A stretch of DNA of 45,852 nucleotides. Origin: an uncultured Pelagibacteraceae bacterium (lineage in GTDB: Bacteria > Pseudomonadota > Alphaproteobacteria > Pelagibacterales > Pelagibacteraceae). Under the pieces are notes generated by a model that saw only the letters and a program-made list of their open reading frames with translations, was not told the origin of the DNA and did not search any database. Of this stretch, positions 1 through 16,768 are shown piece by piece. The position numbers were made by a program, and so were the translations under genes. The stretch covers positions 1 to 45,852 of the forward strand of contig CABZHM010000010.1 in assembly GCA_902525625.1 (NCBI GenBank), written 5' to 3'. Every line of letters begins with the position of its first letter. Within the stretch, counting starts at the first letter, position 1.

Positions 1-3000
1 CTGTAGCATCCCCGTCTACACCTGTTATTGTAAAAGTTATTGTTCCAATATCTATCGCTTTAGAACCAGCGTTTGTTTCATCGTCCATAACTTTATAAGA
101 AAAAACATCAGTTGCAGTTTCACCTGCTCTCATAGCATTTGTCGCTGCATTTCCTGTTACGCTATAAGTATAAGCACCTCCACTATTGATCGTTAAGTCA
201 CCATACGTACCTGATACAGCACTACCGACATTTGAATTTGCTAATGTTGATGATTCAGCACCTGCGCCAACTCCTCTAATCGCTAAAGCTGATGCAGCAT
301 CATCATTATCTGTATCATTTGTTAGAACATTTCCTGTGGCATCATCATCACCTGCTGTAATACTGCCTGTATCATTAACAGCAACTGGTGCAGCGTTTAC
401 TGAAATTGTAATTGTGCGCGTGTTACCCCCAACGACCGTGCCATCATAAGCTTTATAGGTAAAACTATCATCAGACTCAGAGTTTGCATCTGGAGTATAT
501 CTTAATTTAGTAATATCAGTTATTGTGTCATTAACTGATTGCGCTACATAACTTCCACTACTTAATTTTGTTAACGTCCCCGAAGATGGTAAAGATTTAA
601 TTTTTATTCCAAGATCATCATCTGGATCGCTATAATTGGTAAAATCAGAGGCAGCAAAATCTTTTCTAATATTCAATGAAGTTCTAGCTCCATGAGTGGC
701 ATCTGTATTATTTTCATTAATATAAACTGTTTCATTTCCAGCAGTAGGTGTATCGTTTAAACCTAAAATCGTGATAGTAATTGTAGCTGTATCTGTTCCA
801 CTACCTCCATCCGAAAGTGTATAAGTAAATACGTCAGTTGCACTGTCACCAGCATCTAATGCATTAGCAGCATCCTTGTTAGCTACATAAGTATAAGAAC
901 CATCAGCACTTATAGTTAGTTGACCATAAGTTCCATCTAAAGCTGTGCCTACACTCCCTGCAGTACCACCTCCTGGTCCGCCAGTTCTAATTCCAGTAAT
1001 AATTAAGTTGGCATCAGCATCTGCATCACTGTCTGCGTGAGAGCTTGAACTTGTATTAATCACATCTCCAGAGTGTTCAAGATGTGCATCGAATGTGTCA
1101 CCAGTTTTATTTGCATTATCTCCATCATTAACTGTTAAAGTTTCATTTTCTTCTACTACCCCTTCATCATCTTGTGCAGTTGTGGGATCATTTATCCCTA
1201 AAACTTTGATTGTAAGTGTGGCTGTAGCTGTTCCACCATATGCAAAATCGTAACCTGGATGTTGGTCAGTAATTGTGTATGTAAAAACATCGGTTACAGT
1301 ATCTCCAGAATCTAAAGCATCCGCAGCATCTTGATCTGCAACATATTCATAACTTCCATCCGAACCTATAGTTAAAGTTCCGTAAGTACCTGTAACCGAA
1401 GTGGCAGAGCCATGATCATATGTATAATCCCCCACTGCAGTTGCAGAACCTGCTGAACTGTGTTGAATATGAGTAACTTTAATTGTATCACCATACTCTG
1501 AAGTATTAGGATCACTATCAGAGTTAGAAGCTGAACTGGTATCCATTAAATCTCCAGAGTGTTCTTGATGTGCATCATAAGAACCTGTTACGTTAGCATT
1601 AGAACTATTTACAACTGTTAAAGTTCCATCTTCATTTACTACCCCTTCATCGTTTTGTGCAGCAGGAGGAGAATTTCCTTCAACTAAAACCCTTATAAGA
1701 TCTCCACCTCCGATATTCTTCATACCGAAATTTATAGATCGTAAGTCACTACTTACTGCAACCCAATCGCTATTTTTTGATTGGGTACTGTTACCGTAAC
1801 CTCTATATGTAGATTCAGTTCCTTGGTAAGCACGCCATGCTTTTTCACCACTGATAAATTCAAAACCTCTCGTGTCACTAGCACTACTGCTTGTATTTGG
1901 ATATGTACTATTATTTGAATTGTGTAGGTCTATAGTGCCTACGGTATTATTTGAAAGATCATTTTTGTCTTTTATTAATCCAATGATTTTACGATCAAAT
2001 TTTACTTCACCAATTTTGTTGTGTCTATCAGACTTGTCTCCAAATTTTGAGTCTAAGAATATCATGTAAACATCCATTGGGCCTGTATCACTATCTGATG
2101 TTGTAGCTGTTGTTGATAGTTGATAATCAGCACTGCTCGTCTCATTTATTTCAACATCATAACTACCACCTGCCCACTGTGCTACAGTTTTACCGGCTGT
2201 ATAACTACCTGCGTCATGGTCGGGTTTTAGTGCAGTTAAACTACCTGCAGTAATGCCGGTCTTTTCCAAAACAACTGCTACTCTATTCACCTGATTTGCA
2301 GTACCTGCTTCACCTGTGCCAAAATTACCTTCAGAAGTATATGACATATAATTTAATTCAGTGCTAGATGAATTATGTTCTTTTGAAGTAGTAAAATCAA
2401 ATGCGTTTCTATCAGTTGTTCCTGTAAATGCAGCAGTCGATCCTCTAATATGCGTTATTCCATCTAAATTAATATTCACAATATCATTAAATGAATTTCG
2501 ATTTGCTGTTCTAGTCATTGCTAGATCATGTATATAATTAACCTGACTAATGTTTTTAGTTTCAATATTTCCAACTTTACTTTCAAGTTTCCAATCACCA
2601 CTCTTACCTGTAACATCATCTGATGCAGCAATATCTGCTTTAGTGACTTCTGAAATTTTACTGATTAAAGTTTTACCACCCTCTGTACTGGTAACATTAC
2701 ATCCATAGAATAAAATATCTCCATCTTCTGTTAAAGATTGACCTATAGATCTCAATGTATGGTTGTATGATTGAATAGTATCATTTGAAAGTGTTGCATT
2801 TCCAAATAAAATTTTTCCAGCACTACCATGACCAATTATGTGTAATGAAGATATGTCAGCGTCATTTTTTAAAACTTTATCAATCTTTTTGAATCCATCC
2901 TCATTAGATTGAATAAGATAAACTTCCGTATCCTCGTTAAATGCATCTATTAATGTTTGATAGTCTTGTACTTGTGAGTCTATAAAAACAACTTGTTTTC

Positions 3001-3217
3001 GATCATTTCTTTTTTGATCTCTTACAACTTGATCGAACGGTAATTTTTGAGAATTATCCTCAATTTTGTTTTCTGATAATTTTGAAATTTTTTGAATTTT
3101 ATTTGATAATTGCTCTTTGTTTCTCTCATCAATTATATCCAAAGCAGTTGAAGCTCCTGCTCCATCAAGCATTATTCTTTGTTCAAGCGCCTCTATAAAA
3201 ATCTTTTTTTTTGGCAT
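1..3217 (-). CDS. Giant secreted repeat protein with DUF4347 and VCBS/cadherin-like repeats (C-terminus off the window)
   Basis: The frame is open from an ATG at 3217 to the window edge, giving 1072 residues with no stop, so the gene is partial at its 3' end. It begins MPKKKIFIEALEQRIMLDG, which matches the LEPRxL-type N-terminal signature of giant Gram-negative surface proteins. Residues about 75-205 match DUF4347: VVFIDS, HIIGHGSAG, ILFYGCNV and GDWKLE. Residues 205-519 are unrecognised. From about 519 come Asp/Asn/Thr-rich repeats with VCBS hallmarks (NDEGVV, GTYGxLTI, DGSYxYVA, TDVFTYT) at about 519-674, 674-820 and 945 onward, with a cadherin-like unit (YTPDANSESDDSFTYKAYDG) between. Such proteins are usually type I secreted, with the signal at the C-terminus, which is not visible here. 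The divergent TolC-like gene 132 bp away fits that. The size, ligand and export route are inference. Confidence 0.9.
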   Translation of the reverse strand, partial: MPKKKIFIEALEQRIMLDGAGASTALDIIDERNKEQLSNKIQKISKLSENKIEDNSQKLPFDQVVRDQKRNDRKQVVFIDSQVQDYQTLIDAFNEDTEVYLIQSNEDGFKKIDKVLKNDADISSLHIIGHGSAGKILFGNATLSNDTIQSYNHTLRSIGQSLTEDGDILFYGCNVTSTEGGKTLISKISEVTKADIAASDDVTGKSGDWKLESKVGNIETKNISQVNYIHDLAMTRTANRNSFNDIVNINLDGITHIRGSTAAFTGTTDRNAFDFTTSKEHNSSSTELNYMSYTSEGNFGTGEAGTANQVNRVAVVLEKTGITAGSLTALKPDHDAGSYTAGKTVAQWAGGSYDVEINETSSADYQLSTTATTSDSDTGPMDVYMIFLDSKFGDKSDRHNKIGEVKFDRKIIGLIKDKNDLSNNTVGTIDLHNSNNSTYPNTSSSASDTRGFEFISGEKAWRAYQGTESTYRGYGNSTQSKNSDWVAVSSDLRSINFGMKNIGGGDLIRVLVEGNSPPAAQNDEGVVNEDGTLTVVNSSNANVTGSYDAHQEHSGDLMDTSSASNSDSDPNTSEYGDTIKVTHIQHSSAGSATAVGDYTYDHGSATSVTGTYGTLTIGSDGSYEYVADQDAADALDSGDTVTDVFTYTITDQHPGYDFAYGGTATATLTIKVLGINDPTTAQDDEGVVEENETLTVNDGDNANKTGDTFDAHLEHSGDVINTSSSSHADSDADADANLIITGIRTGGPGGGTAGSVGTALDGTYGQLTISADGSYTYVANKDAANALDAGDSATDVFTYTLSDGGSGTDTATITITILGLNDTPTAGNETVYINENNTDATHGARTSLNIRKDFAASDFTNYSDPDDDLGIKIKSLPSSGTLTKLSSGSYVAQSVNDTITDITKLRYTPDANSESDDSFTYKAYDGTVVGGNTRTITISVNAAPVAVNDTGSITAGDDDATGNVLTNDTDNDDAASALAIRGVGAGAESSTLANSNVGSAVSGTYGDLTINSGGAYTYSVTGNAATNAMRAGETATDVFSYKVMDDETNAGSKAIDIGTITFTITGVDGDAT

Positions 3218-3349
3218 TAATAAATAATACTATCTTATCAAAAAATGGCTATTATAAATGATAATTTAAACCCAAAATGGCAGGTTTTTATAATGGATTT
3301 TATTAAAAAAAAATTAAAATAGATAAAAAAAATTATTATAAAAAAAATA

Positions 3350-5929
3350 ATGAAAATTATAAAAATTTTAGGAATTTTTACTCTATTATTAATCTCATCA
3401 TGCACAAGAAATGTAGAGCCTTTATCAAATTTTGAGATTGAAACTAGATCTCAGGAAGATATCGCCACAATAGAGGAAATAAAAAAAAATAGTCTTAATT
3501 GGGATGATAATATAGAAATAGATTTATACACTGCAATATCTCTTGCAATTAAAAACAACAGAGAACTTAGATTAAAATTATTAGAAAATGCTTTAGCAAA
3601 TAGACAGATAGATAAAGTCAGATTTGAAATGTTGCCTGCCATTGCTGCAAATGCAGGTTATTCTGGAAGTGAAAGATACAATGCTAGCGCAAGTGCTACA
3701 GTGCCAACAACCGATTTAGCAGGATCAATAGGCACATCTTATTCAACTTCAAGGGAAAGAGACGTTAATTCGCAAGATGTAGGATTTACATGGAATGCTT
3801 TAGATTTTGGATTATCATACATTAGAGCTGGTCAAGACTCTAATAGATACTTAATCACGGAAGAAATGGAAAGAAAAGCGGAGCACAATATTATTAGAGA
3901 TGTAATAAGATCTTACTGGAACACAATTTCAGCAGATAAGTTGATAAAAAAATATGATCCTTTGTTAATTGAAGTTGATAAAGCACTTAATGACTCTCAA
4001 AAAATAGAAGAGCTGTTATTAACCAAGCCTATGGATGCATTATTATATCAAAAAGAACTGTTAGATATTCAAAGAGCTCTTCAAACTCAAAAAGAAATAT
4101 TTATTGACGCAAGAATACAACTTGCAGGTTTAATGGGTTTATTACCTGATCAACAATTTACTATTGTTCCAACAAATGAGCCTTTGACAATTCTTAATAT
4201 GAGCTTAAGAGGAATGGAGGAATATGCTTTATTACATAGACCTGAGTTAAGAAAGAGTCATTATGACGAAGAAATATCCATACAAGAAGCAAAAGCTAGC
4301 ATCACTTCATTGTTACCAGGTTTAAATTTTAATGCTGCTTGGACACACTCTTCCAATGATCATTTAATGAATAAAACAAATTTAGAATATGGTTCTGTGG
4401 TAGGTGCAAATTTATTAAACGTTTTTATGTATCCGAAAGTTAAAAGAATCAATGAAATGAATACTGAAATTATTAGAGAGAAAAGATTAGCTCTATCAAT
4501 GGCGGTATTATCTCAAGTTCATTTAGCAAATATAGACTACTCTTTAGCTTTGGAGGAATATAATACAGCAGAAAGATATTACGAAGTTTCAAGAAAAATC
4601 ACAGAACAAATAAAAAATGCGCAAAAAATAGCTAGATTTGGAAATTTAGAACTTATAAGAGAACAGGCAAGTTTACTGGTTGCAGAATTAAGATATGATA
4701 TCGCATATTCCAAACTCCAACATGCAATAGGTAAAATTTATACTTCTGTCGGCTTTGATGTTACCAAAGAAAATATAAGGGAGATTAACTTTAAAGATTA
4801 TGCATCAATTATCAAAAACAATTTCATGTCTAATGGTAAAAGATATTATGCAAAAATTAAAAAACCAATTAAAAACCAAAATCCAGTAGTTAAAAGAGAT
4901 GGCGGAAGTAGAATAAGTCAATTTTCATTTTCAGATAATACTTTTGTGTTGGAGGGTGAAGGAAGAATAATTTACAGTGCTTCATTACCCTCTGGTAAAC
5001 CTCTTCCAAGTTGGATTACTTTTTTACCATCTCAAAAAACCTTTATCGTAGATAATTCAGAAAAGGACAATACTGAGGAATTGGATATAAAAGTTGTTGC
5101 AAAAAATATTAATACACGAATAGAGGACAAATTTACTTTAATGGTAGACCCTGAGCTAAGAGTTACAAGGTTGGAAAATGAAAAAAGGCTCAAAGAACAA
5201 AGAAAACTAGCAAAAAAACAAAAACAAGAAGAAGCCGAAAGATTAAAAGCTGAAAAAATTTTAGAAGAAAGAAAGGCGAAAAAAGAGAGAGAATTGTTAG
5301 CTAAGCAAGAAGCTGAAGCTGAGGAACAAAGATTAATTGATGAAAAAGAGCAGGCTGAATTATTAGCTCAACAAGAAGCTAAGGAACAGAGATTAATTAA
5401 TGAAAAAGAACAGGCTGAATTACTAGCTAAACAAGAAGCTGAGGAACAAAGATTAATTGAGGAAAAGAAACAACAGGAATTGTTGGGAATCAAAAAAGCA
5501 AGAGAAGAACGATTGCTTGAACTAGAAAGACAAAAAGAATTTCTAGCAAAACAAAAAAGGCAAGAATTAAATAAATTTACCAAAAATGAACTATTGGCAT
5601 TAAGAGAACAGTTATATGTTCAGCTTGTTGGAAATAAAAGTGAAAGCCTGTATGAAACACTTTATGGTAAAAAAAATTTTGATAAACCTTCAATTAATTT
5701 GATTAAAGCTAAGGATATTGAAGCTAAGATTAATAACATGTTATTGAATCTAGATCTAAATAAAAGAATTGATGTCACAAAAAGTATAATTCAGGATTTA
5801 TTGAAATCAGACTTCCTTAATAAAAATAAGAATGTGATCGATTTTAAAACTCTCAATTATAAAATGAATTTAGAAAGATCGATAATTGATAAATTAGATA
5901 AGTATCCATATAAATATAATTTTAACTGA
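3350..5929 (+). CDS. TolC-family outer-membrane lipoprotein with Ig-like domain and coiled-coil C-terminal extension
   Basis: This 859-residue protein begins with a lipoprotein signal ending LISSC (Cys18), so it is probably lipidated. Residues about 50-470 look like an outer-membrane efflux protein of the TolC/OEP family, with alternating long helices and repeated leucine/asparagine motifs such as ISLAIKNNRELR and LLHRPELRKS. A normal TolC ends near residue 470. Here it continues with a cadherin/Ig-like module at about 510-602 (SASLPSGKPLPSWITFLPS resembles the dystroglycan-type or putative Ig fold), a Lys/Glu/Gln-rich coiled coil at about 603-740, and a 120-residue charged tail. The gene is divergent from the giant adhesin gene, so it is plausibly the outer-membrane pore of its type I secretion system. 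No ABC or membrane-fusion component lies in this window. The TolC call is firm; the tail's role is unknown. Confidence 0.87.
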   Translation: MKIIKILGIFTLLLISSCTRNVEPLSNFEIETRSQEDIATIEEIKKNSLNWDDNIEIDLYTAISLAIKNNRELRLKLLENALANRQIDKVRFEMLPAIAANAGYSGSERYNASASATVPTTDLAGSIGTSYSTSRERDVNSQDVGFTWNALDFGLSYIRAGQDSNRYLITEEMERKAEHNIIRDVIRSYWNTISADKLIKKYDPLLIEVDKALNDSQKIEELLLTKPMDALLYQKELLDIQRALQTQKEIFIDARIQLAGLMGLLPDQQFTIVPTNEPLTILNMSLRGMEEYALLHRPELRKSHYDEEISIQEAKASITSLLPGLNFNAAWTHSSNDHLMNKTNLEYGSVVGANLLNVFMYPKVKRINEMNTEIIREKRLALSMAVLSQVHLANIDYSLALEEYNTAERYYEVSRKITEQIKNAQKIARFGNLELIREQASLLVAELRYDIAYSKLQHAIGKIYTSVGFDVTKENIREINFKDYASIIKNNFMSNGKRYYAKIKKPIKNQNPVVKRDGGSRISQFSFSDNTFVLEGEGRIIYSASLPSGKPLPSWITFLPSQKTFIVDNSEKDNTEELDIKVVAKNINTRIEDKFTLMVDPELRVTRLENEKRLKEQRKLAKKQKQEEAERLKAEKILEERKAKKERELLAKQEAEAEEQRLIDEKEQAELLAQQEAKEQRLINEKEQAELLAKQEAEEQRLIEEKKQQELLGIKKAREERLLELERQKEFLAKQKRQELNKFTKNELLALREQLYVQLVGNKSESLYETLYGKKNFDKPSINLIKAKDIEAKINNMLLNLDLNKRIDVTKSIIQDLLKSDFLNKNKNVIDFKTLNYKMNLERSIIDKLDKYPYKYNFN
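5315..5494 (+). repeat. Three tandem 60-bp in-frame repeats coding for coiled coil
   Basis: Three consecutive 60-bp units start at 5315, 5375 and 5435. Each encodes 20 residues of the form EAxEQRLIxEKxQxELLxxQ. Units 1 and 2 differ at few bases and unit 3 is more diverged. They lie inside the coiled-coil extension of the TolC-like gene, keep the reading frame and lengthen the helix in steps. Replication slippage is a likely origin. Confidence 0.85.
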
Positions 5930-6099: not shown

Positions 6100-7158
6100 T
6101 TATATATCAAATTCTCTAGAAGTTAACTCGTATAGACGACTTATTGTACGTTCAAAAGGTTTTTTAAGTGAATTTGAGGAGGTTAAACTTTCTAAACTTT
6201 GACTTGCCGTAATGGCCAATGGAATGCCTCTGTCATAAATTACATCTAATAATGTTATAAATCTCTGTTGTTGATTTGAATTAATATCATTAAATTGTGG
6301 CATTTGCTCAATAATAATAAACTTAGAATTTTTTACTATTTCAAGATAATCCTCAGCTCCTAAATTTCGATTACATAGCTCATCAAAATTGAAACGACAA
6401 ATACCCTCAAAAAAAAAATTTATTTTAAAATCTCTACCCTTTATATTCAAAACCTTAGGAGAATTCTTTTTCTCTTTTGTTATAATTCTGAAAAATTTAT
6501 TTATTTTAAAATTAGTTTCTTGATTTAAAGGAAAAAAGTATCTTTGTTTTTGATTTTGATTTGATTTCCTATAATCATCTTCAATAATTAATTCGTGATT
6601 AATAGAATTTTTTTTCATTATATCTATAAATGGTAAAAACTGATCTCTCTGTAAGCCATCCTTATATAGTTCGGAAATTTCAATATTTGAAGTTAGTATT
6701 ATCTTAATATTCTCTTTAAAGATTTCCTCAAAAAGCTTTCCTAATATCATAGCATCTACAATATTAGTAACTTGAAATTCATCAAAATAAATTAATGATA
6801 TCTTTGACTTTAGATCTTTAACATAAGTGCTTACTACATTCTCTTGATTTTTATATCTTCTACTGTGAACAAAATCATGAAAATCTAACATAAATTCGTT
6901 GAAATGAAGTCTTTTTTTTTTTTGATTTATTAGACCAAAAAAAAAATTTAAAATCATTGTCTTACCAACACCTACTCCACCATGTAAATAAAAAGCTTTT
7001 TTTGATTTTTTTTTTGAAAAAAATCCAAAAAAATTTAATGTAAAGTTTTGATTAAAAAAATCTTGCAATCTTTTAACTACTTTAATTTGACTTTGGTTAA
7101 CTTCTAAATTTTCTAATTTACAGTACAATTTAAATTTTTCCTCAAAGTTTTTGGGCAT
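6100..7158 (-). CDS. zapE: ZapE/AFG1-family P-loop ATPase
   Basis: This 352-residue protein belongs to the AFG1/ZapE family of AAA-like ATPases. In Escherichia coli ZapE associates with the division ring, and the mitochondrial homologue LACE1/Afg1 acts in protein quality control. The Walker A motif is HGGVGVGKT near residues 58-66, followed by the family segment LHFNEFMLDFHDFVH. Walker B is LIYFDEFQVTNIVDAMILG, and an ITASQSLESL-type segment lies near the C-terminus. I start at the ATG at 7158, which overlaps the TGA of the cupin gene (TGATG). A TTG one codon earlier is less likely. It is the last gene of the leftward operon that begins at csaA. Confidence 0.9.
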   Translation of the reverse strand: MPKNFEEKFKLYCKLENLEVNQSQIKVVKRLQDFFNQNFTLNFFGFFSKKKSKKAFYLHGGVGVGKTMILNFFFGLINQKKKRLHFNEFMLDFHDFVHSRRYKNQENVVSTYVKDLKSKISLIYFDEFQVTNIVDAMILGKLFEEIFKENIKIILTSNIEISELYKDGLQRDQFLPFIDIMKKNSINHELIIEDDYRKSNQNQKQRYFFPLNQETNFKINKFFRIITKEKKNSPKVLNIKGRDFKINFFFEGICRFNFDELCNRNLGAEDYLEIVKNSKFIIIEQMPQFNDINSNQQQRFITLLDVIYDRGIPLAITASQSLESLTSSNSLKKPFERTISRLYELTSREFDI

Positions 7159-7589
7159 CAATCTTTTTTGGTCTTAAAGTCAATGCCATACTCAGATCGA
7201 GGTCCCTTTCTTAATCCAAATGGTCCTGTAATAAATAGTGTTAATGGCCTTGTTCCGGGCTCAAGATCAACTCTGTGGAGATTATTTGCTGATCTAAATC
7301 CAATATACCCCGGTGGTCTCCAAAATTTACCTGTGCTTATAGTTTCCCAATATCCACCTCTTAATATGATTGTTATATAAGGAAAAGTGTGATTATGAAC
7401 ACCTTCTCCGTGATCGTCAGCCAACATTTCATGTATTAAAATATTGAAAGGAAACCACTTTGGTCGATGTCTTAACAATACGTAATATCTATTCATCCAA
7501 GGTTTTGCTTTGTGGAACTCTGGATGTGAGGGTCCTCTATCAAGAACAACTTTTTTTCGACCAATTTTTTCTAAAAATTTTAAAATCAT
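7158..7589 (-). CDS. Cupin-domain protein
   Basis: This small protein of 143 residues (152 if the upstream ATG at 7616 is used) has a single cupin beta-barrel. The first cupin motif is visible as GEGVHNHTFPYITIILRGGYWE-like sequence, with HxH metal ligands but no clear Glu. The second is NNLHRVDLEPGTRP, with the third His. Some cysteine-dioxygenase-like and sugar-binding cupins look like this; the substrate cannot be told. I prefer the ATG at 7589, just after the bamB stop (TAAAATG), because the 7616 start would overlap bamB by 26 bases. It sits between bamB and zapE in one operon. Confidence 0.75.
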   Translation of the reverse strand: MILKFLEKIGRKKVVLDRGPSHPEFHKAKPWMNRYYVLLRHRPKWFPFNILIHEMLADDHGEGVHNHTFPYITIILRGGYWETISTGKFWRPPGYIGFRSANNLHRVDLEPGTRPLTLFITGPFGLRKGPRSEYGIDFKTKKD

Positions 7590-7590
7590 T

Positions 7591-8889
7591 TTATTTGTAT
7601 TGTACAACACCACCATTTTTAATTACAAATAAATTATTATTGAATAAAAATGGTTTTGAAATTAAATTCCTTGAAATATTTTCTACCTTGATTATATCTC
7701 CAGTGCTTAATTCGATAATAGCCAATTTTCCATCACTATTAGTTAAATAGACTTTATCTTGGCTTATTGAAAAGCCCATAGGTTTAATCTTTTTTTTATC
7801 TTTAACTTTATAATTCTTAAATACATCTTTTATTTTAATAATATTTCCTGTTTTCTTATCAATAACAAATAAGTAACCATTCTCTGAGATTGTAAAAATT
7901 AAACTATTTACAATGATCGGAGTAAGACTTGAGCTTATATCATTTATCCAATTAATTGATCCATTATTTAAATTAATGGAGTGAAATTCATTAAAATTAT
8001 TTGAAAAATAAATTTCATCACCATCGAGGACTAGTTTTGAATTTTTAAAACTATAAGTAGAATTAGCAATAGCACTGCTTTGGGTTGGAAGTTGCCAAAC
8101 CATTGTGCCCGATTGTATATCTGCTGCTGTTACATCTCCTAAATTATTAAGAAAAACAACTAATCTATTTGAGATTATTAATGAATTTTTAGAATTAGAT
8201 AAGGTAAGTGTTTTATCAGTTTCTAGTGACCAACACTCTGAACCATCCTTTATATAAAAGCATCTTAAAACATTTTTTATATCTACAGCAAAAAATTTTT
8301 CATTTAAAATCTTTATTTCAGAATTAAATGGATATTCATTTTTTTTTGACCATATCAAGTTTCCATTCTCTAAATTGACTAAAAATAAATTTGATAAGCT
8401 GTCAATTACAATTAATTTATTTTCTTGTGTTGCTAAAAATAATCTAGGATTATTTTTTTTTTCAGATTTCTTATAAATGTTTTTCTTCCAAATAATCTTT
8501 TCATTGTTATCATATCTTATTATTGAACCTTTGGTGTCAAACAAAATTATGCCATCTCTTAAAAAAACTGGTTGAAAATCTACTTGAGTTTCAAAAGTAA
8601 ACTTTGAAAATTTATATTTTTTAATCTTTTTAAAATTTCCTGAATATTTTTGGGCACCATAATTATTTTTGTTATTTAAAATTTTACCTCCAACTGAAAT
8701 ATTTGATAAATCTAAGTTAATATTTGGGTTAAGTTCGTTATAGGATATTTTTTTTTTATCTAGTACAATTCTCAAATTTTTATTTTCTTTAACTTTAATA
8801 TCTTTTTTGCTCCAAATTTTTGAATTTTTATTTAAAGAACAGCCAATAATTAATAAAGATAAAAAAACAAAAGAAAAAATCTTAATCAC
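7591..8889 (-). CDS. bamB: Outer-membrane assembly lipoprotein BamB-like (PQQ beta-propeller)
   Basis: This 432-residue protein starts with a lipoprotein signal ending LLIIGC (Cys17) and continues with PQQ/quinoprotein-type beta-propeller blades. The blades are seen as repeated units such as LVNLENGNLIWSKK, AADIQSGTMVWQLP, SINLNNGSINW and VIDKKTGNIIKI. BamB is the propeller lipoprotein of the Bam complex, which inserts beta-barrels in the outer membrane. The start is a GTG at 8889, preceded by AGAGAT and overlapping the upstream gene by 8 bases; no better start keeps the signal peptide. The upstream YfgM-like gene supports the call, since yfgM-bamB is a widespread pair. The usual next gene, der, is absent here and a cupin gene follows. 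Confidence 0.8.
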   Translation of the reverse strand: MIKIFSFVFLSLLIIGCSLNKNSKIWSKKDIKVKENKNLRIVLDKKKISYNELNPNINLDLSNISVGGKILNNKNNYGAQKYSGNFKKIKKYKFSKFTFETQVDFQPVFLRDGIILFDTKGSIIRYDNNEKIIWKKNIYKKSEKKNNPRLFLATQENKLIVIDSLSNLFLVNLENGNLIWSKKNEYPFNSEIKILNEKFFAVDIKNVLRCFYIKDGSECWSLETDKTLTLSNSKNSLIISNRLVVFLNNLGDVTAADIQSGTMVWQLPTQSSAIANSTYSFKNSKLVLDGDEIYFSNNFNEFHSINLNNGSINWINDISSSLTPIIVNSLIFTISENGYLFVIDKKTGNIIKIKDVFKNYKVKDKKKIKPMGFSISQDKVYLTNSDGKLAIIELSTGDIIKVENISRNLISKPFLFNNNLFVIKNGGVVQYK

Positions 8890-9526
8890 TTAAATCTCTA
8901 TTTAATCTTTTTTGAGCTTCAACTAATATATCTGGATTTGAGTTTTTTAAATTAATTATTTGGCTAAAAAACTCTTTAGACTTTTGTTTTTGATTTTTTG
9001 AGTAAAAATATTCTGCTAACAAATAAAGAGCATGTGAGTTCCAAACGCTTTTGGTTTTTATAATTGGATTTAAAATATTAAGTAACTCATTCTCAGATAT
9101 TTGATCAGCATTATAAAGACCTTTCTTATAAATAATTAAATTTTTTATTTCTTTATTTAATGATGTTTTGTTAATTAATATTTCAAATAAATCGTTGATC
9201 TGATTTCTATCGTTAATTAACTGATTATCTAGAATGAAATACAGCGAAAGTGGAGAATAAGTTGAATCTTTTTTATTAATTATTTTAATTAAATTTTCAG
9301 CCGTTTTTTTTTTATCATTCTTATCAAAACTTATTGTTGTCGAATAATATAAGTTTGAAATTTTTTTATTTTGAATTTTTATAAACTCTCCATAGCCAAA
9401 AAATAAAACTACAGTCAAAATAATAACGACAAAAAAAATAATCAATTTCTTTTTGTTATCAAAAAGAAAATTTTTTATTTTCTCTTTACGTGTATTTAAT
9501 TCTATTATTGGTATATCATCGTCCAT
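8882..9526 (-). CDS. YfgM-like single-span membrane protein with TPR-like periplasmic domain
   Basis: The 214-residue protein has a cytoplasmic N-terminus (MDDDIPIIELNTRKEK), one membrane span at about residues 28-47 (KLIIFFVVIILTVVLFFGYG), and a helical domain beyond it. Phrases such as NSHALYLLAEYFYSKNQKQK resemble a tetratricopeptide hairpin. This topology and the position directly upstream of bamB match YfgM-type proteins, which work with periplasmic chaperones near the Sec translocon in Escherichia coli. The sequence is poorly conserved, so the assignment rests on topology and neighbours. It starts 1 base after the acnA stop. Confidence 0.65.
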   Translation of the reverse strand: MDDDIPIIELNTRKEKIKNFLFDNKKKLIIFFVVIILTVVLFFGYGEFIKIQNKKISNLYYSTTISFDKNDKKKTAENLIKIINKKDSTYSPLSLYFILDNQLINDRNQINDLFEILINKTSLNKEIKNLIIYKKGLYNADQISENELLNILNPIIKTKSVWNSHALYLLAEYFYSKNQKQKSKEFFSQIINLKNSNPDILVEAQKRLNRDLSD

Positions 9527-9527
9527 A

Positions 9528-12197
9528 TTAAATCATATTACGAAGAACATACTGTAATATTCCCCCATTCTTATAGTACTCTAATTCATTTTTTGTATCT
9601 ATCCTACACAGAGTTTCTAATTTTTTAATTTCACCAGATAAATACTTAATTTCAATTTTAACCTTGTCAGAAGGATTTATTCCCTTTTCTAAATTAATAA
9701 CACTTATTAGTTCTGAACCTTTTAAATTCAAATTTTTTCTGTTTATATTATCTATAAATTGAAGAGGTAAAACTCCCATTCCAATTAAATTAGATCTATG
9801 AATCCTCTCAAAACTTTCAGCAATTACCGCTTTAATACCTAAAAGTTTTGTTCCCTTTGCAGCCCAATCCCTTGATGAACCTGTTCCATATTCTTTGCCG
9901 CCAATAACAACTAAATCTGTTTTTCTTTTTTTATATTCAACTACTGCATCATATACTGGGATAACTTTTTCTTCAGGGTATAATTTGGTAAAACCACCTT
10001 CCGTTCCTGGTGCCATTTCATTTCTTATCCTAATATTTGCAAATGTTCCTCTCATCATAACCTCATGATTTCCTCTTCTTGATCCATAAGAATTATAATC
10101 TTTTGGTAAAATTTGATGCTTCATAAAATAGTCACCAGTCGGACTATCTTTCTGTATATTACCTGCTGGAGATATGTGATCAGTAGTAACCATATCTCCT
10201 AAAATTAGTAAAGGTCTAGCATCTTTTATCTTTTTAAATCCCTCTGGCTCATCAGGTAAGTCATCAAAAAACGGCGGTTTTTTTACATAGGTCGAATTTT
10301 CTTCCCAATCATAAATACTGGTTTTTTCAGTTTTAATTTCTTGCCATTGTTTTGGTCCCTCAGAAACATTTGAGTATCTCTTAATAAACATGTCTGCACT
10401 TAAAGAAGCTTTTAAAATATCTTCAATCTCTTTATTTGTAGGCCAAATATCTTTTAAATAAATATCATTTCCATTTTTATCTTTTCCTAGTGGGTCATTG
10501 TAAAGATTAAAATCCATTCTCCCAGCTAAAGCATAGGCAACAACTAGTGGAGGAGAAGCCAAAAAATTAGCTTTAATGTGTGGTGAAATTCTTCCCTCGA
10601 AATTTCTATTTCCTGAGAGAACTGAAACTGCGTATAAATTTTCTTTTTGAATTGCATGAACAATATTATCTGCTAATGGTCCAGAATTTCCAATACATGT
10701 TGTGCATCCATAACCTACTAAATTAAATCCTAATTTATCAAGGTATTTTGATAGGTCAGCTTTATCTAAGTAATCCGTTACAACTTGAGATCCTGGCGCC
10801 AATGAGGTCTTTACCCATGGCTTTACCTTAAGACCAAGATCCACTGCTTTTTTTGCAACTAATCCCGCACCGATCAAAACATTGGGATTAGAAGTGTTAG
10901 TGCAAGACGTTATTGCAGCAATTAAAATAGAACCATCCTGAATTTCAAAATCAGTACCATCCACTTTTGATAGAGAAAAATTTTTTTTCTTTGTGGTATC
11001 AAAAAAAACTTTTTTAAAATTACTAGCTGCATCAGTTAACAAAACTTTATCTTGTGGTCTTTTGGGTCCTGAGATTGTTGGTACAATTGTAGACATATCC
11101 AATGTCAAATTATCAGTAAAATATATATCATCACTAGCCCATAAACCTTGTGCCTTTGCATATTTTTCGACAATTTTTACAGTAAAATTATCTCTGCCAG
11201 AAAATTCCAAATACTTCAAAGTTTCTTCATCAATAGGAAAAAAACCACATGTTGCTCCATATTCTGGAGCCATATTTGCAATAGTTGCTCGATCAGCAAG
11301 AGATAAATTTTTTAATCCTTCTCCATAAAATTCTACAAATTTTCCAACTACACCTTTATCTCTTAACATTTTTACAACTGTTAATACTAAATCTGTAGCC
11401 GTTGTACCCTCAGGCATTTTATTTTTTACCTCAAAACCAATCACTTCTGGTATCAACATTGAAATTGGTTGGCCTAGCATTCCTGCCTCTGCCTCAATAC
11501 CTCCTACTCCCCAACCCAAAACTGATAATCCATTAACCATTGTTGTATGACTATCTGTTCCGACTAATGTATCTGGAAAAATATATTCATCTCCTTTGTA
11601 TTTCTCATTCCATACTACTTTAGATAGATATTCTAAATTGACCTGGTGACAAATTCCTGTGCCTGGGGGAACAATTCTAAAATTATCAAACGCTTGTTGT
11701 CCCCACTTTAAAAATGAGTATCTTTCACTATTTCTTTTAAATTCTATCTCAACATTTTTTTCAAATGAATCTGACTTTGCAGATTGATCTACTTGAACAG
11801 AGTGGTCTATTACAAGATCAACTGCAGATAATGGATTAATTTTTTCTGGGTCTTTTTTTTTATTTTTTACAGCTTCTCGCATGGCAGCTAAATCAGCAAC
11901 AGCTGGTATACCGGTATAATCTTGTAACAAAACTCTTGCAGGTCTATAAGCTATTTCAGTTTTGGATTTTTTATCTTTCAACCATTCTTTAATTGCCTCA
12001 ATTTGTTTTTTTGTTACAGATAGATCATCTTCATATCTTAAAAGATTTTCCAAAAGCACTTTCAAAGATTTAGGTAATCTAGAAATACCATCTAATCCAT
12101 TTTTCTCAGCATTTTCTAAAGAGTAATATTTAAATTTTTTACCCTGAATATCTATCTCTGAGAGTGAATTGTAAGAATTTTTTGTACCTGGTTTCAT
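9528..12197 (-). CDS. acnA: Aconitate hydratase A
   Basis: At 889 residues this has the full length of the AcnA/IRP1 family. It isomerises citrate to isocitrate in the TCA cycle through a 4Fe-4S cluster. The cluster cysteines are visible in ITSCTNTSNP near residue 434 and GYGCTTCIGNSGP near 500. Other family segments include RPARVLLQDYTGIPAV, DHSVQVDQ, GTGICHQVNLEYL, VGTDSHTTMVNGL and, in the swivel domain, GGKEYGTGSSRDWAAKG. The start is an ATG 8 bases after the LysE-type gene, within the csaA-zapE operon. Confidence 0.98.
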   Translation of the reverse strand: MKPGTKNSYNSLSEIDIQGKKFKYYSLENAEKNGLDGISRLPKSLKVLLENLLRYEDDLSVTKKQIEAIKEWLKDKKSKTEIAYRPARVLLQDYTGIPAVADLAAMREAVKNKKKDPEKINPLSAVDLVIDHSVQVDQSAKSDSFEKNVEIEFKRNSERYSFLKWGQQAFDNFRIVPPGTGICHQVNLEYLSKVVWNEKYKGDEYIFPDTLVGTDSHTTMVNGLSVLGWGVGGIEAEAGMLGQPISMLIPEVIGFEVKNKMPEGTTATDLVLTVVKMLRDKGVVGKFVEFYGEGLKNLSLADRATIANMAPEYGATCGFFPIDEETLKYLEFSGRDNFTVKIVEKYAKAQGLWASDDIYFTDNLTLDMSTIVPTISGPKRPQDKVLLTDAASNFKKVFFDTTKKKNFSLSKVDGTDFEIQDGSILIAAITSCTNTSNPNVLIGAGLVAKKAVDLGLKVKPWVKTSLAPGSQVVTDYLDKADLSKYLDKLGFNLVGYGCTTCIGNSGPLADNIVHAIQKENLYAVSVLSGNRNFEGRISPHIKANFLASPPLVVAYALAGRMDFNLYNDPLGKDKNGNDIYLKDIWPTNKEIEDILKASLSADMFIKRYSNVSEGPKQWQEIKTEKTSIYDWEENSTYVKKPPFFDDLPDEPEGFKKIKDARPLLILGDMVTTDHISPAGNIQKDSPTGDYFMKHQILPKDYNSYGSRRGNHEVMMRGTFANIRIRNEMAPGTEGGFTKLYPEEKVIPVYDAVVEYKKRKTDLVVIGGKEYGTGSSRDWAAKGTKLLGIKAVIAESFERIHRSNLIGMGVLPLQFIDNINRKNLNLKGSELISVINLEKGINPSDKVKIEIKYLSGEIKKLETLCRIDTKNELEYYKNGGILQYVLRNMI

Positions 12198-12205
12198 ATT
12201 TTATA

Positions 12206-12796
12206 TTATATATAGAACGTAATTATGCTCAAAAGAAGAAGTCCTGACATAACATAATTAAAATACTTAATAAATTTATCATTTGTCGCAAATTTCCTAA
12301 GAAATTTTCCTATAAAAGTCCAAAGAGTGATACTTGTTACCGAAAATATGAATGCTAGGAATATAATTTGAGTCGCATAGCTCAAATAATTCTCACCTAA
12401 TTCTACATATGTAGAAACAACAATTATTGCCACAGTTACTCCCTTTGGATTTAAATATTGAAACAAAAATGTTTCAATAAATTTTACAGGGTTTTCTTTA
12501 ATAGTTTCATCAGAAGTTTTTGAAAATGCAATTTTGTAGGCCAAATAAATTAAAAATAAAGTCCCAAGATATTTAATTATAATTTGTATTACAGGAAATA
12601 ATTTAAATATATTTATAAGACCGATAGATAAAAATAAAACTAACGATGTGAATCCTAAAGTTACTCCTAAGATATGGGGGATAGTTTTTGCAAAACCAAA
12701 ATTGAAACCAGAATACGAAGCCACAACATTATTTGGTCCTGGCGTATATGCGGTTACAAACCAAAATAAAGAGATTGATAATATTTCAGGATGCAT
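12206..12796 (-). CDS. LysE/RhtB-family amino-acid exporter
   Basis: This 196-residue membrane protein has about six hydrophobic segments and the family signature near the N-terminus, FWFVTAYTPGPNNVVASYSG (PGPN motif). It also has GVTLGF and the later FQYLNPKGVTVAI (NPK motif). The LysE/RhtB family exports amino acids and related compounds across the inner membrane. The substrate cannot be inferred from sequence. It starts 1 base after the csaA stop and is followed by acnA after 8 bases, so expression is coupled to those genes. Confidence 0.88.
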   Translation of the reverse strand: MHPEILSISLFWFVTAYTPGPNNVVASYSGFNFGFAKTIPHILGVTLGFTSLVLFLSIGLINIFKLFPVIQIIIKYLGTLFLIYLAYKIAFSKTSDETIKENPVKFIETFLFQYLNPKGVTVAIIVVSTYVELGENYLSYATQIIFLAFIFSVTSITLWTFIGKFLRKFATNDKFIKYFNYVMSGLLLLSIITFYI

Positions 12797-12797
12797 T

Positions 12798-13139
12798 TTA
12801 AGCTATTGGGAGACCGTTCTCAGATTTTTGAGAAGGGTGAACTAATATCACTTTTCCCTCTTTATCGATCGAACCTAAAATTAAAACCTGAGAAACAACA
12901 CCTGCAATATTTTTCTCTGGAAAATTACAAACACCTATGACTTGTTTCCCTTTTAAATTCTCTTCGTTATAGTAATGAGTGATTTGTGCAGATGATTGTT
13001 TTACACCTATTTCCTTACCAAAGTCAACTTCGATTACTAATGATGGTTTTCTAGCTTTTTCATTTTGTTTCACAGAAATTACGGTTCCTACTCTTATATC
13101 TACCTTATCAAATATGTTGTATGTAATTTGTTCTTTCAT
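12798..13139 (-). CDS. csaA: CsaA-type tRNA-binding domain protein
   Basis: The protein has 113 residues, the full length of stand-alone CsaA. It shows the OB-fold of the EMAP-II/tRNA-binding domain: KVDIRVGTVISVKQNEKARK, then DFGKEIGVKQSSAQIT, then GKQVIGVCNFPEKNIAG and LILGS. CsaA was described as a chaperone-like protein that binds tRNA. It is the first gene of the leftward operon reaching zapE. Only 29 bases separate its ATG from the divergent argE ATG, so both promoters must be packed into that gap or into coding sequence. Confidence 0.9.
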   Translation of the reverse strand: MKEQITYNIFDKVDIRVGTVISVKQNEKARKPSLVIEVDFGKEIGVKQSSAQITHYYNEENLKGKQVIGVCNFPEKNIAGVVSQVLILGSIDKEGKVILVHPSQKSENGLPIA

Positions 13140-13168
13140 AATCTCAGTATATATATTAGTTATTATTT

Positions 13169-14359
13169 ATGAGTACAGAAATTAATTTAGATGAATTATA
13201 TAATAATTCGATAAAAATTTTGTCAGATTTAATAGGTTTCAAAACTATATCAGGTGAAGATAATAGTAATTTAATTAATTACTGTGAGAATTATTTGCAT
13301 AATTTTGGTGCAACATCATTTAAAACGTTTGATGACGAAAAAAAAAGAGTAAATCTTTTTGCAACAATTAAAGCAAAAAAATCGAATGGTATAAAACCAA
13401 TTATTTTATCGGGTCATACCGATACAGTGCCAGTTTCAAAAAGTTGGAGTACAGATCCTTTCAAAGCAACTATAAAAAAAGAAAAACTTTATGGAAGAGG
13501 ATCATGTGACATGAAAGGTTTTATTGCATGCACATTAGCTTTCGCTCCTGTTTACTCTAAAACTGATTTAAATCGAGATATTCATTTTTCTTTCACTTTT
13601 GATGAAGAGACTGCATGTATTGGGGCACCTATTTTGATAAAAGAATTAAAAAAAAGAAATATTAATGAAGGTATTTGTATTGTGGGTGAGCCCACAAAAA
13701 TGAAAATTATTGATGCGCATAAAGGATGCTATGAATATACAACTTATTTTGAAGGACTGGCAGGTCATAGTTCTATGCCACACAAAGGAGTTAGCGCGGT
13801 TGAATTTGCAACAAAATATTCTAATAAATTAATAGAACTTAGAGAGGAACTAAAAAAAAGATCTCCAAAAGACTCTGTATTTGATCCGCCCTTTTCAACT
13901 TTACAAGTCGGAGGTATTTTTGGAGGAATAGCTCATAATGTTATTGCTGATAAATGTCATGTAGAATGGGAAACTCGACCAGTAGTTAAAGAAGATGGAA
14001 TATTTTTAAATCAGGAGATTGATAAATATGCCAATGAGGTTTTATTACCAGAGATGAGGAAAGTATTTACTAATTCTAAAATTACAAAAAAAATTATTGG
14101 TGAAGTCGCAGGCTTCAATCGTGTTTTAAATTCTGAAGCATGTGAATTTGTATCAAGTCTTACAGGTGATAATTCCAGAGAGGTTGTTTCTTTTGGAACT
14201 GAGGCTGGGTTGTTTCAAGAAATAGGTATTAGTACAGTTGTTTGTGGACCTGGTTCAATTGATCAAGCACATAAAGTTGATGAATTTATTGAATTAAGTG
14301 AGCTGAAAAAGTGTGTAAAATTTCTGGATGGTATAAGAGAAAAATCTTCAATAAATTAA
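13169..14359 (+). CDS. argE: Acetylornithine deacetylase (M20 family)
   Basis: This 396-residue M20 metallopeptidase-family enzyme cleaves N-acetylornithine to ornithine and acetate in arginine synthesis. Metal ligands and catalytic residues are in place: LSGHTDTVPV, GRGSCDMKGF, FDEETACIGA, VGEPTKM and, near the end, GPGSIDQAHKVDEFI. GHSSMPHKGVSA is the dimerisation-domain segment. The length and the GPGSxxxAHxxDE ending favour ArgE over DapE or a generic peptidase. The stop overlaps the convergent aldehyde dehydrogenase stop by 4 bases through a shared TTAA. Confidence 0.88.
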   Translation: MSTEINLDELYNNSIKILSDLIGFKTISGEDNSNLINYCENYLHNFGATSFKTFDDEKKRVNLFATIKAKKSNGIKPIILSGHTDTVPVSKSWSTDPFKATIKKEKLYGRGSCDMKGFIACTLAFAPVYSKTDLNRDIHFSFTFDEETACIGAPILIKELKKRNINEGICIVGEPTKMKIIDAHKGCYEYTTYFEGLAGHSSMPHKGVSAVEFATKYSNKLIELREELKKRSPKDSVFDPPFSTLQVGGIFGGIAHNVIADKCHVEWETRPVVKEDGIFLNQEIDKYANEVLLPEMRKVFTNSKITKKIIGEVAGFNRVLNSEACEFVSSLTGDNSREVVSFGTEAGLFQEIGISTVVCGPGSIDQAHKVDEFIELSELKKCVKFLDGIREKSSIN

Positions 14360-15789
14360 CTCCACCCACCTACAGATTTAACTTCCAAAAATTCTTGAAG
14401 ACCGTGTTCACCAGCTTCTCTACCTATTCCTGAATGCTTGAAACCTCCAAAAGGTGTATCTATTGCTATGCCTGCACCATTTACATCAACCATTCCTGAT
14501 CTGAGTTTTTTTGCAACGCGTTTAGCTTTTTCTTGATCTTGGGTTTGAATATAATTTGTTAGTCCATAAGGAGTATCATTTGCAATTTTGATTGCATCTT
14601 CCTCTGTTTCAAAAGGTATAACAGATAATACTGGTCCAAAAATTTCAGTCCGAGCAATTTCCATACTATTATCAACATCAATAAATACAGTCGGTTTAAC
14701 AAAATATCCTTTTTCATGACCTTTAGGTTTTCCAAGTCCACCTGCAACTAATTTTGCTCCCTCATCAATACCTTTTTTAATTAAGGCTTGAATCTTATTA
14801 TATTGGGTCTCTGATACGACTGGCCCGATATGTTCTCCTTCCTTTTTAGGGTCTCCCACTTCAATACTATCTGTGTACTCTTTAAGTTTTTTAACAGCAT
14901 CAGAGTAATTTGATTTTTCAATTAACATTCTTGTTGGTGCATTACATGATTGACCTGAATTTTTAAAACATCTTAAAGCGCCCCATTCAATAGCTTTGGG
15001 ATCTGCATCTTTAAAGATTATGTTGGCCCCTTTACCACCTAACTCTAAACTTACTCTTTTAAAATCATTAGCTGCATTTTGTGAAATTAAAGCACCAGCT
15101 TTAGTCGATCCAGTAAAAGAAATCATATTTATACTTGGATGTCGTGTAAGAGCATCACCGGTTGTATTTCCATCGCCATTAATAAGATTAAACACTCCTG
15201 GGGGGAATTTTGTTTCATCAATAATTTCGGTTAGAATCATTGATGACAATGGAGCAAGTTCTGAAGGTTTTAAAACCATTGTGCAACCTGATGCTAAAGC
15301 AGGTATTACTTTTAGACAAACCTGATTCATAGGCCAGTTCCATGGTGTAATCAATGCGCAGACTCCTTTGGGTTCATATAAAAGTCTTTGATTGGGAGCA
15401 TGGTCTCCCAAAGGTTTTTCAAATTCAAAATTCTTAAGGTGTCTTATAAAAGATTTTATGTGAGCTGCTCCTGTACCAACTTGAAGTTTTGTTGCAAAAT
15501 CTTTTGGTGCACCCATTTCTGTGGTGATCGCCTCAGAAATATCTGCCCATCTTTTTTTATAATTTTCATAAAGATTTTCTAAAAGTTTTATTCTTTCCTC
15601 TTTATTTGTAAAAGCCCAATAGCTATAGGCTTCTTTAGCAGAACTTACTGCAATATCGACATCTTCTTTGTTACCGAGAGTGATAATTGCGCATTTTTCT
15701 TCAGTAGATGGATTAACAACTTCAATTTGTTGCTTACTTTTTGGAACCTGCCATTTTCCATTTATATAAAAATTTTTTTTATCTTTCAT
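14356..15789 (-). CDS. NAD(P)-dependent aldehyde dehydrogenase
   Basis: This protein has 477 residues from the ATG at 15789. An in-frame TTG at 15822 exists but would overlap the upstream gene, and an AAAGAG sequence lies upstream of the ATG. It has the aldehyde dehydrogenase superfamily motifs: ALITPWNWPMNQ, the catalytic Glu in SLELGGKGANII near 246, the catalytic Cys in KNSGQSCNAPTR near 280, and TEIFGPVLSVIPF. The substrate is not determined by sequence. It lies 19 bases after the agmatinase-family gene, so it may oxidise an aldehyde from polyamine or guanidino-compound breakdown, such as 4-aminobutanal; this is inference. Confidence 0.93.
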   Translation of the reverse strand: MKDKKNFYINGKWQVPKSKQQIEVVNPSTEEKCAIITLGNKEDVDIAVSSAKEAYSYWAFTNKEERIKLLENLYENYKKRWADISEAITTEMGAPKDFATKLQVGTGAAHIKSFIRHLKNFEFEKPLGDHAPNQRLLYEPKGVCALITPWNWPMNQVCLKVIPALASGCTMVLKPSELAPLSSMILTEIIDETKFPPGVFNLINGDGNTTGDALTRHPSINMISFTGSTKAGALISQNAANDFKRVSLELGGKGANIIFKDADPKAIEWGALRCFKNSGQSCNAPTRMLIEKSNYSDAVKKLKEYTDSIEVGDPKKEGEHIGPVVSETQYNKIQALIKKGIDEGAKLVAGGLGKPKGHEKGYFVKPTVFIDVDNSMEIARTEIFGPVLSVIPFETEEDAIKIANDTPYGLTNYIQTQDQEKAKRVAKKLRSGMVDVNGAGIAIDTPFGGFKHSGIGREAGEHGLQEFLEVKSVGGWS

Positions 15790-15808
15790 AATTTTTAGTA
15801 ACTCTTTG

Positions 15809-16768
15809 TTATTTTTTTGCAAATAAATTAGTCAATTCATAAACAATTGTAGCAGCAGCAAGTGATGTTACCTCAGCATGATCATATGCTGGTGAGACTT
15901 CAACTACATCTGCCGATATAAGATTTAAGCCCGATAAGCCCCTTAAAACATTCACCATTTCCCTTGAGGTCATCCCAGCAATTTCTGGAGTTCCTGTTCC
16001 AGGTGCGAAAGCAGGGTCTAATACGTCTATATCTATAGATAAATATAAAGGATTGTTACCTACTCTTTTCTTTATTCTCTCAGCAATACTATCTGTTCCC
16101 TCTGATTGAAATTCATCACAATGAATAATTTTAAATCCAAAACTCTCGTCATTCTTAATATCATCTCTGCTATATAATGGACCTCTAATTCCAACGTGCA
16201 TTGATGCATCATCCAAAAATAAATTTTCTTCCCTCGCTCTTCTAAAAGGTGTTCCATGAGTATAGGGGGCTCCAAAATATGTATCCCAAGTATCAAGATG
16301 AGCATCAAAGTGTACTAATGCGACTGGTCCGTTGTTAATTTTATTAACTGCTTTTAAGAGAGGAAAAGCAATCGTATGATCTCCACCTAAACAAATAATA
16401 CCTCCAACCTTTTTTAATAAATCCTCGGCTCCTATTTGTATCTGTTTTATTGCTTCATTAATATTAAATGGATTGCAAGTAATATCTCCCGCATCAGCCA
16501 CTTGTTGTATTTTAAATGGCTCAACATCATAACTTGGATGATAATTGGTTCTTAAGTGTCTTGAAGCCTGTCTTATACTTTGAGGTCCAAATCTCGCTCC
16601 GGGTCTGTAACTCGTGCCAGCATCAAATGGAACTCCAACAATTGCAACGTCACAACTTTCCACATCTCTTAGCTCTGGCAATCTAGCAAATGTTGAGGGC
16701 CCTGCGAACCTAGGGACTTTTGTTCCACTAACAGGTTGAATTGGATCTTTTTTAGTTTTTTTTTTCAC
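15809..16768 (-). CDS. Agmatinase/guanidino-acid ureohydrolase (arginase superfamily)
   Basis: The 319-residue enzyme belongs to the arginase/agmatinase family of Mn-dependent ureohydrolases, which release urea from a guanidino group. The metal-binding motifs are complete: LGGDHTIAFPLL, VHFDAHLDTWD and SIDIDVLDPAFAPGTGTPE. Agmatinase, guanidinobutyrase and guanidinopropionase cannot be separated by motif, so I do not give a symbol. The start is a GTG at 16768; no closer ATG keeps the N-terminal domain. It is followed after 19 bases by an aldehyde dehydrogenase and is divergent from the metallopeptidase-like gene. A short inverted repeat (ACAGT, 4 bases, ACTGT) at 16767-16780 overlaps the start and could be an operator, but this is weak. 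Confidence 0.92.
   Translation of the reverse strand: MKKKTKKDPIQPVSGTKVPRFAGPSTFARLPELRDVESCDVAIVGVPFDAGTSYRPGARFGPQSIRQASRHLRTNYHPSYDVEPFKIQQVADAGDITCNPFNINEAIKQIQIGAEDLLKKVGGIICLGGDHTIAFPLLKAVNKINNGPVALVHFDAHLDTWDTYFGAPYTHGTPFRRAREENLFLDDASMHVGIRGPLYSRDDIKNDESFGFKIIHCDEFQSEGTDSIAERIKKRVGNNPLYLSIDIDVLDPAFAPGTGTPEIAGMTSREMVNVLRGLSGLNLISADVVEVSPAYDHAEVTSLAAATIVYELTNLFAKK

Follow-up and report, generated by a model that had tools for sequence, protein, structure and literature searches.

A TolC-family lipoprotein with a long Ig-like and charged-helix C-terminal arm, encoded beside DUF4347 giant proteins in SAR11 bacteria

The window, meaning the whole stretch of 45,852 nucleotides analyzed here, is contig CABZHM010000010.1 of assembly GCA_902525625.1, from an uncultured member of the Pelagibacteraceae whose genome is 1.06 Mb in size and 86% complete. 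Positions 3350-5929 of its plus strand hold a single uninterrupted ATG-to-stop frame of 859 amino acids with no internal stop, which encodes a lipoprotein of the TolC/OEP family (assigned by Pfam) with a C-terminal extension. Just two overlapping frames on the opposite strand reach 60 amino acids, with lengths of 63 and 71. A divergent intergenic region of 132 bp (3218-3349) separates the gene from the N-terminal part of a giant protein encoded on the minus strand (2-3217), with LEPR-XLL, DUF4347 and cadherin/VCBS repeats according to Pfam and TIGR profiles. The giant runs for 1072 amino acids until it is truncated by the contig end, and is the only DUF4347 match in the source genome. Short A+T-rich tandem repeats at 3300-3367 cover the right end of the intergenic region and the start of the TolC gene. 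The neighbors at 6100-16768 are ordinary by Pfam, and include an AFG1-like ATPase, a BamB-like propeller, aconitase, LysE, a tRNA-binding domain, an M20 peptidase, an aldehyde dehydrogenase and a member of the arginase family; the stretch 7158-7616 has no Pfam match. The source genome encodes one other OEP protein, on a different contig, in a frame of 432 amino acids.

The protein starts with a signal peptide (3350-3403, plus strand) ending in LISSC, which we take from the consensus to be a lipobox, and the cysteine of this motif, Cys18, is invariant in all six aligned sequences. The channel part spans residues 60 to about 476 (3527-4777, plus strand). Its end, placed by aligning homologues, lies near the residue 470 given in the preliminary description. 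The OEP profile PF02321 matches it in two stretches (92.9 bits against a cut-off of 22, E 2.8e-26), which places the protein in the family. The same description had the protein continuing past the channel to residue 859, and indeed about 380 extra residues follow in one open frame; the reference point for extension lengths is window position 466, beyond which 394 amino acids are counted. As in the TolC/OprM outer membrane factors, there are two OEP repeats and a C-terminal region at the periplasmic belt and, judging from the lipobox, the N terminus would be lipidated like that of OprM (for the latter, PMC8277102, in excerpt). Unlike E. coli TolC, which has 471 residues in total (same excerpt), the window protein adds an Ig module and a charged helix.

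The first module of the extension is a predicted Ig-like domain of the dystroglycan/cadherin (He_PIG) type at residues 499-601 (4844-5152, plus strand). An AlphaFold2 model of residues 466-859, built with 34 sequences (mean pLDDT 75.9, pTM 0.37), has an Ig-type sandwich at about 499-601, with a block pLDDT mostly above 90, and the best Foldseek rows for the arm model are mainly Ig and cadherin domains. VIA-align, whose lists cover the Ig domain only and are uninformative on the helix, the tail and any SPOR-like tip, ranked the dystroglycan juxtamembrane domain first (8uf4; Z 10.2, rmsd 2.5 over 92 residues of the predicted model), while most other Ig/cadherin rows had a Z near 7. The model of the relative L064 agrees (Z 10.9, rmsd 2.2, 93 residues). 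In the window protein itself, the He_PIG profile (PF05345) stays below its cut-off of 24, with 12 bits (E 0.29) and 13.8 bits, yet it passes in three of five relatives scanned whole (P0004-P0006, and not P0002 or P0003). It matches 29 of the 34 extensions of alignment A2 at E 0.5 or lower and all 22 of a second extension set at E 1 or lower, several of these matches, including that of the window protein in A2, being under the curated cut-off. The Ig-like module proposed from the sequence is thus upheld by the predicted fold and by the passing relatives. Codon constraint is alike in the Ig and channel parts, with a third-position excess of 3.0-3.8 and 3.2-4.0, respectively, in three pairs.

After the Ig module, residues 602-760 (5153-5629, plus strand) form a K/E/R-rich charged helix according to the model and the charge pattern; AlphaFold2 gives two long helices, 601-668 and 677-760, and then shorter ones. 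The 60-bp repeat reported earlier was recovered within this helix by a tandem-repeat scan (5315-5466, plus strand; 2.5 copies, 89% matches), but the coiled coil claimed for it was not: over residues 601-760 of the window protein there is no heptad or hendecad hydrophobic period (power 0.1 and 0.4), and the best period was reached in 470 of 500 shuffles. Pairs of charges at i/i+4 are instead opposite in 24 cases and like in 8, an excess equalled by one of 500 shuffles, in a test where the repeats make helix positions partly non-independent. From these patterns, a single charged alpha-helix of the ER/K type fits better than a coiled coil. Among nine relatives, whose helix stretches were picked by hand, the charge pattern was equalled by none or one of 500 shuffles in seven, and is lacking in L053 and L061. 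A hydrophobic period appears near 3.65 in L054 and L053 and near 3.56 in L064, so the rod may differ in type between lineages. The helix and tail have a third-position excess of 1.4-1.9 against L039 and L041, that is, weak constraint, and of 2.5 and 3.4 against the closest relative, L036. Domain II of TolA is likewise a long charged helix, periplasmic in that protein; TolA membership was rejected, the profile TIGR02794 scoring 11.9 bits where its cut-off is 59.45.

The arm ends in a short helical tail at residues 761-859 (5630-5926, plus strand), which by the AlphaFold2 model and the alignment can be aligned to part of the genus. A SPOR domain (PF05036) was looked for and not found in this tail, with no Pfam match at E 0.5, a helical model and an hhalign probability of 0.1%. 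Other arms do end in SPOR. All five of the SAR11-branch loci L059-L063 have it above cut-off at the C-terminal tip (23.6-27.5 bits against 21), and five of the 34 members of alignment A2 match. Among distant alphaproteobacterial TolC homologues, L127 and L133 carry it as well (31.6 and 36.6 bits against 21), and L130, with 16.9 bits, is below the cut-off. In L064, of the g2 type, whose group may have a SPOR-like tip, Pfam places no SPOR at E 1, and SPOR matched in five of the 22 sequences of its set; compared with SPOR directly, this tip reached an hhalign probability of 13% and a pairwise E of 0.0022, its beta-alpha-beta-alpha order being modeled at a pLDDT of about 45-65. Against the PDB, the g2 tip profile gave two matches, both at chance level (E 0.61 and 0.75). 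In other lineages the arm ends are lysine-rich or very short. Two cysteines mark the C termini of f2 relatives (for example L064:12479-12808): 28 of the 33 complete frames among L059-L092 have exactly two within their final 20 residues, and both are invariant in the seven sequences aligned.

The extension is not a local feature. A scan of named genomes retained the best 80 of 139 relatives, and extension length could be mapped in 79 of these 80 loci (not in L095), counting from the residue aligned to window position 466. The SAR11 branch comprises 59 loci (L036-L092, L094 and L105; best 80 of 139), seven of them with frames cut by contig ends, and all 52 complete frames are extended, by 138-530 amino acids past the channel. 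The highest-scoring rows among the best 80 of 139 are titled Pelagibacteraceae, that is, SAR11, and the closest match in this set, L036, is 83% identical across residues 18-858. Three loci classed only as Alphaproteobacteria (L059, L060 and L062) are placed on the SAR11 branch by the tree, in which several long branches meet and the branch is set against L093 with a support of 83 (not starred). The carriers fall in two families, f1, which includes the window protein, and f2. The gene is patchy, being present in 30 of 101 relatives, only one of which, besides the source genome, is of the same genus; a wider survey of 397 genomes of the order counts 14 same-genus carriers, the source genome included. 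Among plasmid records, the window TolC found 52 matches, none covering 80% of the query, and the 20 of these 52 that were listed all end by its residue 513.

That TolC proteins normally end shortly after the channel, as the preliminary description assumed, holds for the 20 non-SAR11 homologues among the best 80 of 139, which continue for 36-71 amino acids, but fails for some other Alphaproteobacteria. A draw of 337 genomes from the class gave 21 with a homologue at 1e-40 or better (the source genome included), and outside SAR11 it contains long TolC frames of up to 812 amino acids. He_PIG follows the OEP part above its cut-off of 24 in L125, L126 and L128 (53.2, 46.3 and 33.6 bits), and by Pfam L129 and L131 have neither He_PIG nor SPOR. 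Together with the SPOR-tailed L127 and L133, these are OEP proteins with a C-terminal domain above cut-off, as in relatives of the window protein; unlike the window's group, they carry one of the two domains each and, in the tree of the channel parts, are placed at a distance from the SAR11 branch. This kind of TolC therefore extends beyond SAR11. Parsimony on the channel tree, with labels assigned by us from the sequences and Pfam and a count blind to gain versus loss, requires three changes for Ig (71 rows) and three for SPOR (66 rows, or 55 with strict labels), which fits more than one origin of such tails.

The length of the arm varies widely. The near-identical channels of L050 and L054 bear charged-repeat arms (L050:11396-12418 and L054:11396-12748) that differ by 110 amino acids (341 and 451, respectively). 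Short arms are found in L055 (164 amino acids), in G106, whose whole frame has 657 amino acids, and in L058 (138 amino acids, without a He_PIG match). Such variation in repeat number and the short arms make a fixed-length ruler unlikely. Broken genes were considered for G106 and G108 and rejected, the frames of 657 and 835 amino acids being intact and the reported stops lying most likely past the true end.

The preliminary description suggested looking for co-occurrence with DUF4347 giants in related genomes, and the pairing is close to complete. Of the 397 genomes of the order, 49 carry the TolC at 1e-60 or better and 49 carry DUF4347, the corresponding counts among the 151 genomes of best quality being 13 and 14; 48 genomes have both, G079 has TolC only, G064 has DUF4347 only, and 347 have neither. 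Fisher's test gives 1e-59, a value that ignores relatedness, and the independent events are far fewer than those counted because related genomes inherit both genes. The two genes share a contig in 45 of 49 cases, 44 of them less than 1.5 kb apart, and both discordant genomes and the three contig-split pairs (G084, G168 and G201) involve matches at contig ends. As in the window, the giant is divergent from TolC in L036, L041, L064 and L075; in L054 and G106 it lies downstream on the same strand. Two DUF4347 matches per genome occur in G108, G277, G371 and G418, and DUF4347 open frames reach 7341 amino acids (G106). Outside SAR11, the closest TolC among the best 80 of 139 is that of L093, titled Nitrospiraceae (49% identity), which lacks the arm. 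At this locus (L093:600-3363), the TolC is nevertheless encoded beside a DUF4347 protein (171.7 bits), so the arm is unnecessary for such pairing in general; the locus may reflect transfer or misbinning.

Besides the channel, the surroundings of the giant contain further export components. HlyD-type adaptors follow the DUF4347 giant in SAR11 loci (L041:568-4744, L064:674-2769 and L061:112-2214, all on the minus strand), three of them in L041 and two scanned in L064, with lengths of about 250 and 450 amino acids, and a fusion of an M50 protease with HlyD, of about 700 amino acids, is present in L041 and L061. Relatives of this fusion were found in 50 of the 397 genomes, and 45 of these also have the TolC. 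None was found in the source genome, where the giant runs off the end of its contig. A similar gene set, by gene order and lengths, accompanies unextended TolCs of about 500-550 amino acids in L098 and L107, where Pfam also places an M50-HlyD fusion nearby (M50 just under cut-off in L098). The ABC exporter profile TIGR03375 was above its cut-off in none of 15 genomes and in none of 14 controls, a comparison made without a positive control. The adaptors that follow the giants may belong to an export system that has no adjacent ABC exporter. The arrangement resembles type I secretion of giant adhesins of the Bap/LapF/SiiE kind, with a TolC-type channel, HlyD-type adaptors and a cadherin/VCBS giant, and a HlyD-type adaptor is linked to both channel and giant in L041 and L064. 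It differs in that the M50-HlyD fusion occupies the cluster position expected for the ABC exporter.

Every domain of the protein is known, and C-terminally elongated TolC homologues already exist, as in L125-L128 and L133. Another case is AatA, the TolC homologue of enteroaggregative E. coli, whose carboxy-terminal elongation has a base required for export (PMC8277102, in excerpt); compared through this description, which in the excerpt names no Ig or SPOR, it is likewise elongated. Among the open-licence papers searched, we found neither the combination of OEP, Ig and charged helix nor its tie to SAR11 DUF4347 giants, no paper dealing with how DUF4347 giants are exported, and none pairing "outer membrane efflux protein" with SPOR. 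TolC and SPOR occur as separate proteins in the excerpt of PMC7901474, and that of PMC4006046 treats cadherins of winter-active taxa without naming SAR11.

We propose, with confidence evenly divided, that the arm-bearing TolC is the channel exporting the giant and that the arm is a periplasmic tether or anchor; its role, location and substrate are what we infer from the comparisons above. The channel would be the outer-membrane component of machinery devoted to exporting the DUF4347/LEPR giant surface protein. Leaving the equatorial belt on the periplasmic side, the arm would start with a rigid Ig module of the dystroglycan type, serving as a spacer or a docking face, and continue as a charged helix of about 160 residues. 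A helix rises by 0.15 nm per residue, and this one would measure about 24 nm if straight. This succession of a rigid Ig module, a rod and then a tip is the build of a tether, and the variable tip would bind a partner on the opposite side. The SPOR tips of related lineages point to peptidoglycan as one target, while in the window's lineage a small helical tail would take the place of SPOR, with the wall or an adaptor as its partner. The arm should be periplasmic, and by analogy probably points into the cell envelope, because in TolC-type channels the C-terminal region is part of the equatorial belt in the periplasm and contributes to adaptor recruitment (PMC8277102, in excerpt). The same excerpt has such channels interacting with the peptidoglycan layer, and SPOR binds denuded septal peptidoglycan (PMC7901474, in excerpt). 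The earlier suggestion that the tail could reach the cell wall thus gains from the SPOR tips of L059-L063, L127 and L133; in the tail of the window protein itself, no SPOR was found.

Other roles can be read from the same evidence. The Ig module and helix might draw the HlyD-type adaptors, including the one fused to an M50 protease, into the export complex or clamp them there, with wall binding being secondary. The adaptors encoded after the giant in L041 (three), L064 (two scanned) and L061 (the M50-HlyD fusion), the sharing of that fusion with TolC in 45 of its 50 genomes, and the part taken by the OprM C-terminal tail in adaptor recruitment (PMC8277102, in excerpt) all favor such docking, which we nonetheless consider doubtful, given that the unextended TolCs of L098 and L107 sit beside a similar set, so that docking does not require an arm. 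Holding of the substrate is an improbable role, in which the arm would bind the giant, for instance by steering it through the periplasm or by holding on to its end at the pore; the cadherin-like repeats of the giant may be what the Ig module pairs with. Near-perfect co-occurrence and linkage with DUF4347 giants would suit it, although any dedicated channel is expected to be linked; cadherin/Ig-type domains do occur in both partners, but the SPOR tips indicate the wall rather than the substrate.

A further reading is that the helix and tail are low-complexity growth of little function, with selection acting, if on anything, on the Ig part. The variation in length and repeat number, the weak constraint against L039 and L041 and the missing charge pattern in L053 and L061 speak for such growth; we judge it very unlikely, in view of the extension that every one of the 52 complete frames on the SAR11 branch bears (among the best 80 of 139), of a charge pattern exceeding that of shuffles in seven of nine relatives, and of the SPOR tips. 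Absence of the extension from close relatives, or a frameshift joining two genes, would make the fusion a local accident according to the preliminary description, and both were looked for. The match of L036 over residues 18-858 and the 52 extended frames, both among the best 80 of 139, refute a frameshift or mis-join, in favor of which nothing was found and whose probability we take as practically nil.

SAR11, the most abundant marine bacteria, have streamlined genomes, so the retention of an arm of about 380 residues on the channel that would export the product of a very large surface gene suggests that it earns its cost. The arm-bearing TolC offers a handle on the export system of DUF4347 giants. 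Were the arm to anchor its channel at the wall, for which the relatives with SPOR tips make the clearest case, giant proteins would be exported and displayed at particular envelope sites. An ampler version, which we advance as unlikely but worth stating, is that a wall-tethered TolC with an envelope-spanning arm exports the SAR11 giants, driven by the M50-HlyD fusion and two adaptors instead of an ABC exporter. If true, this would be a distinct export machine whose channel carries its own anchor.
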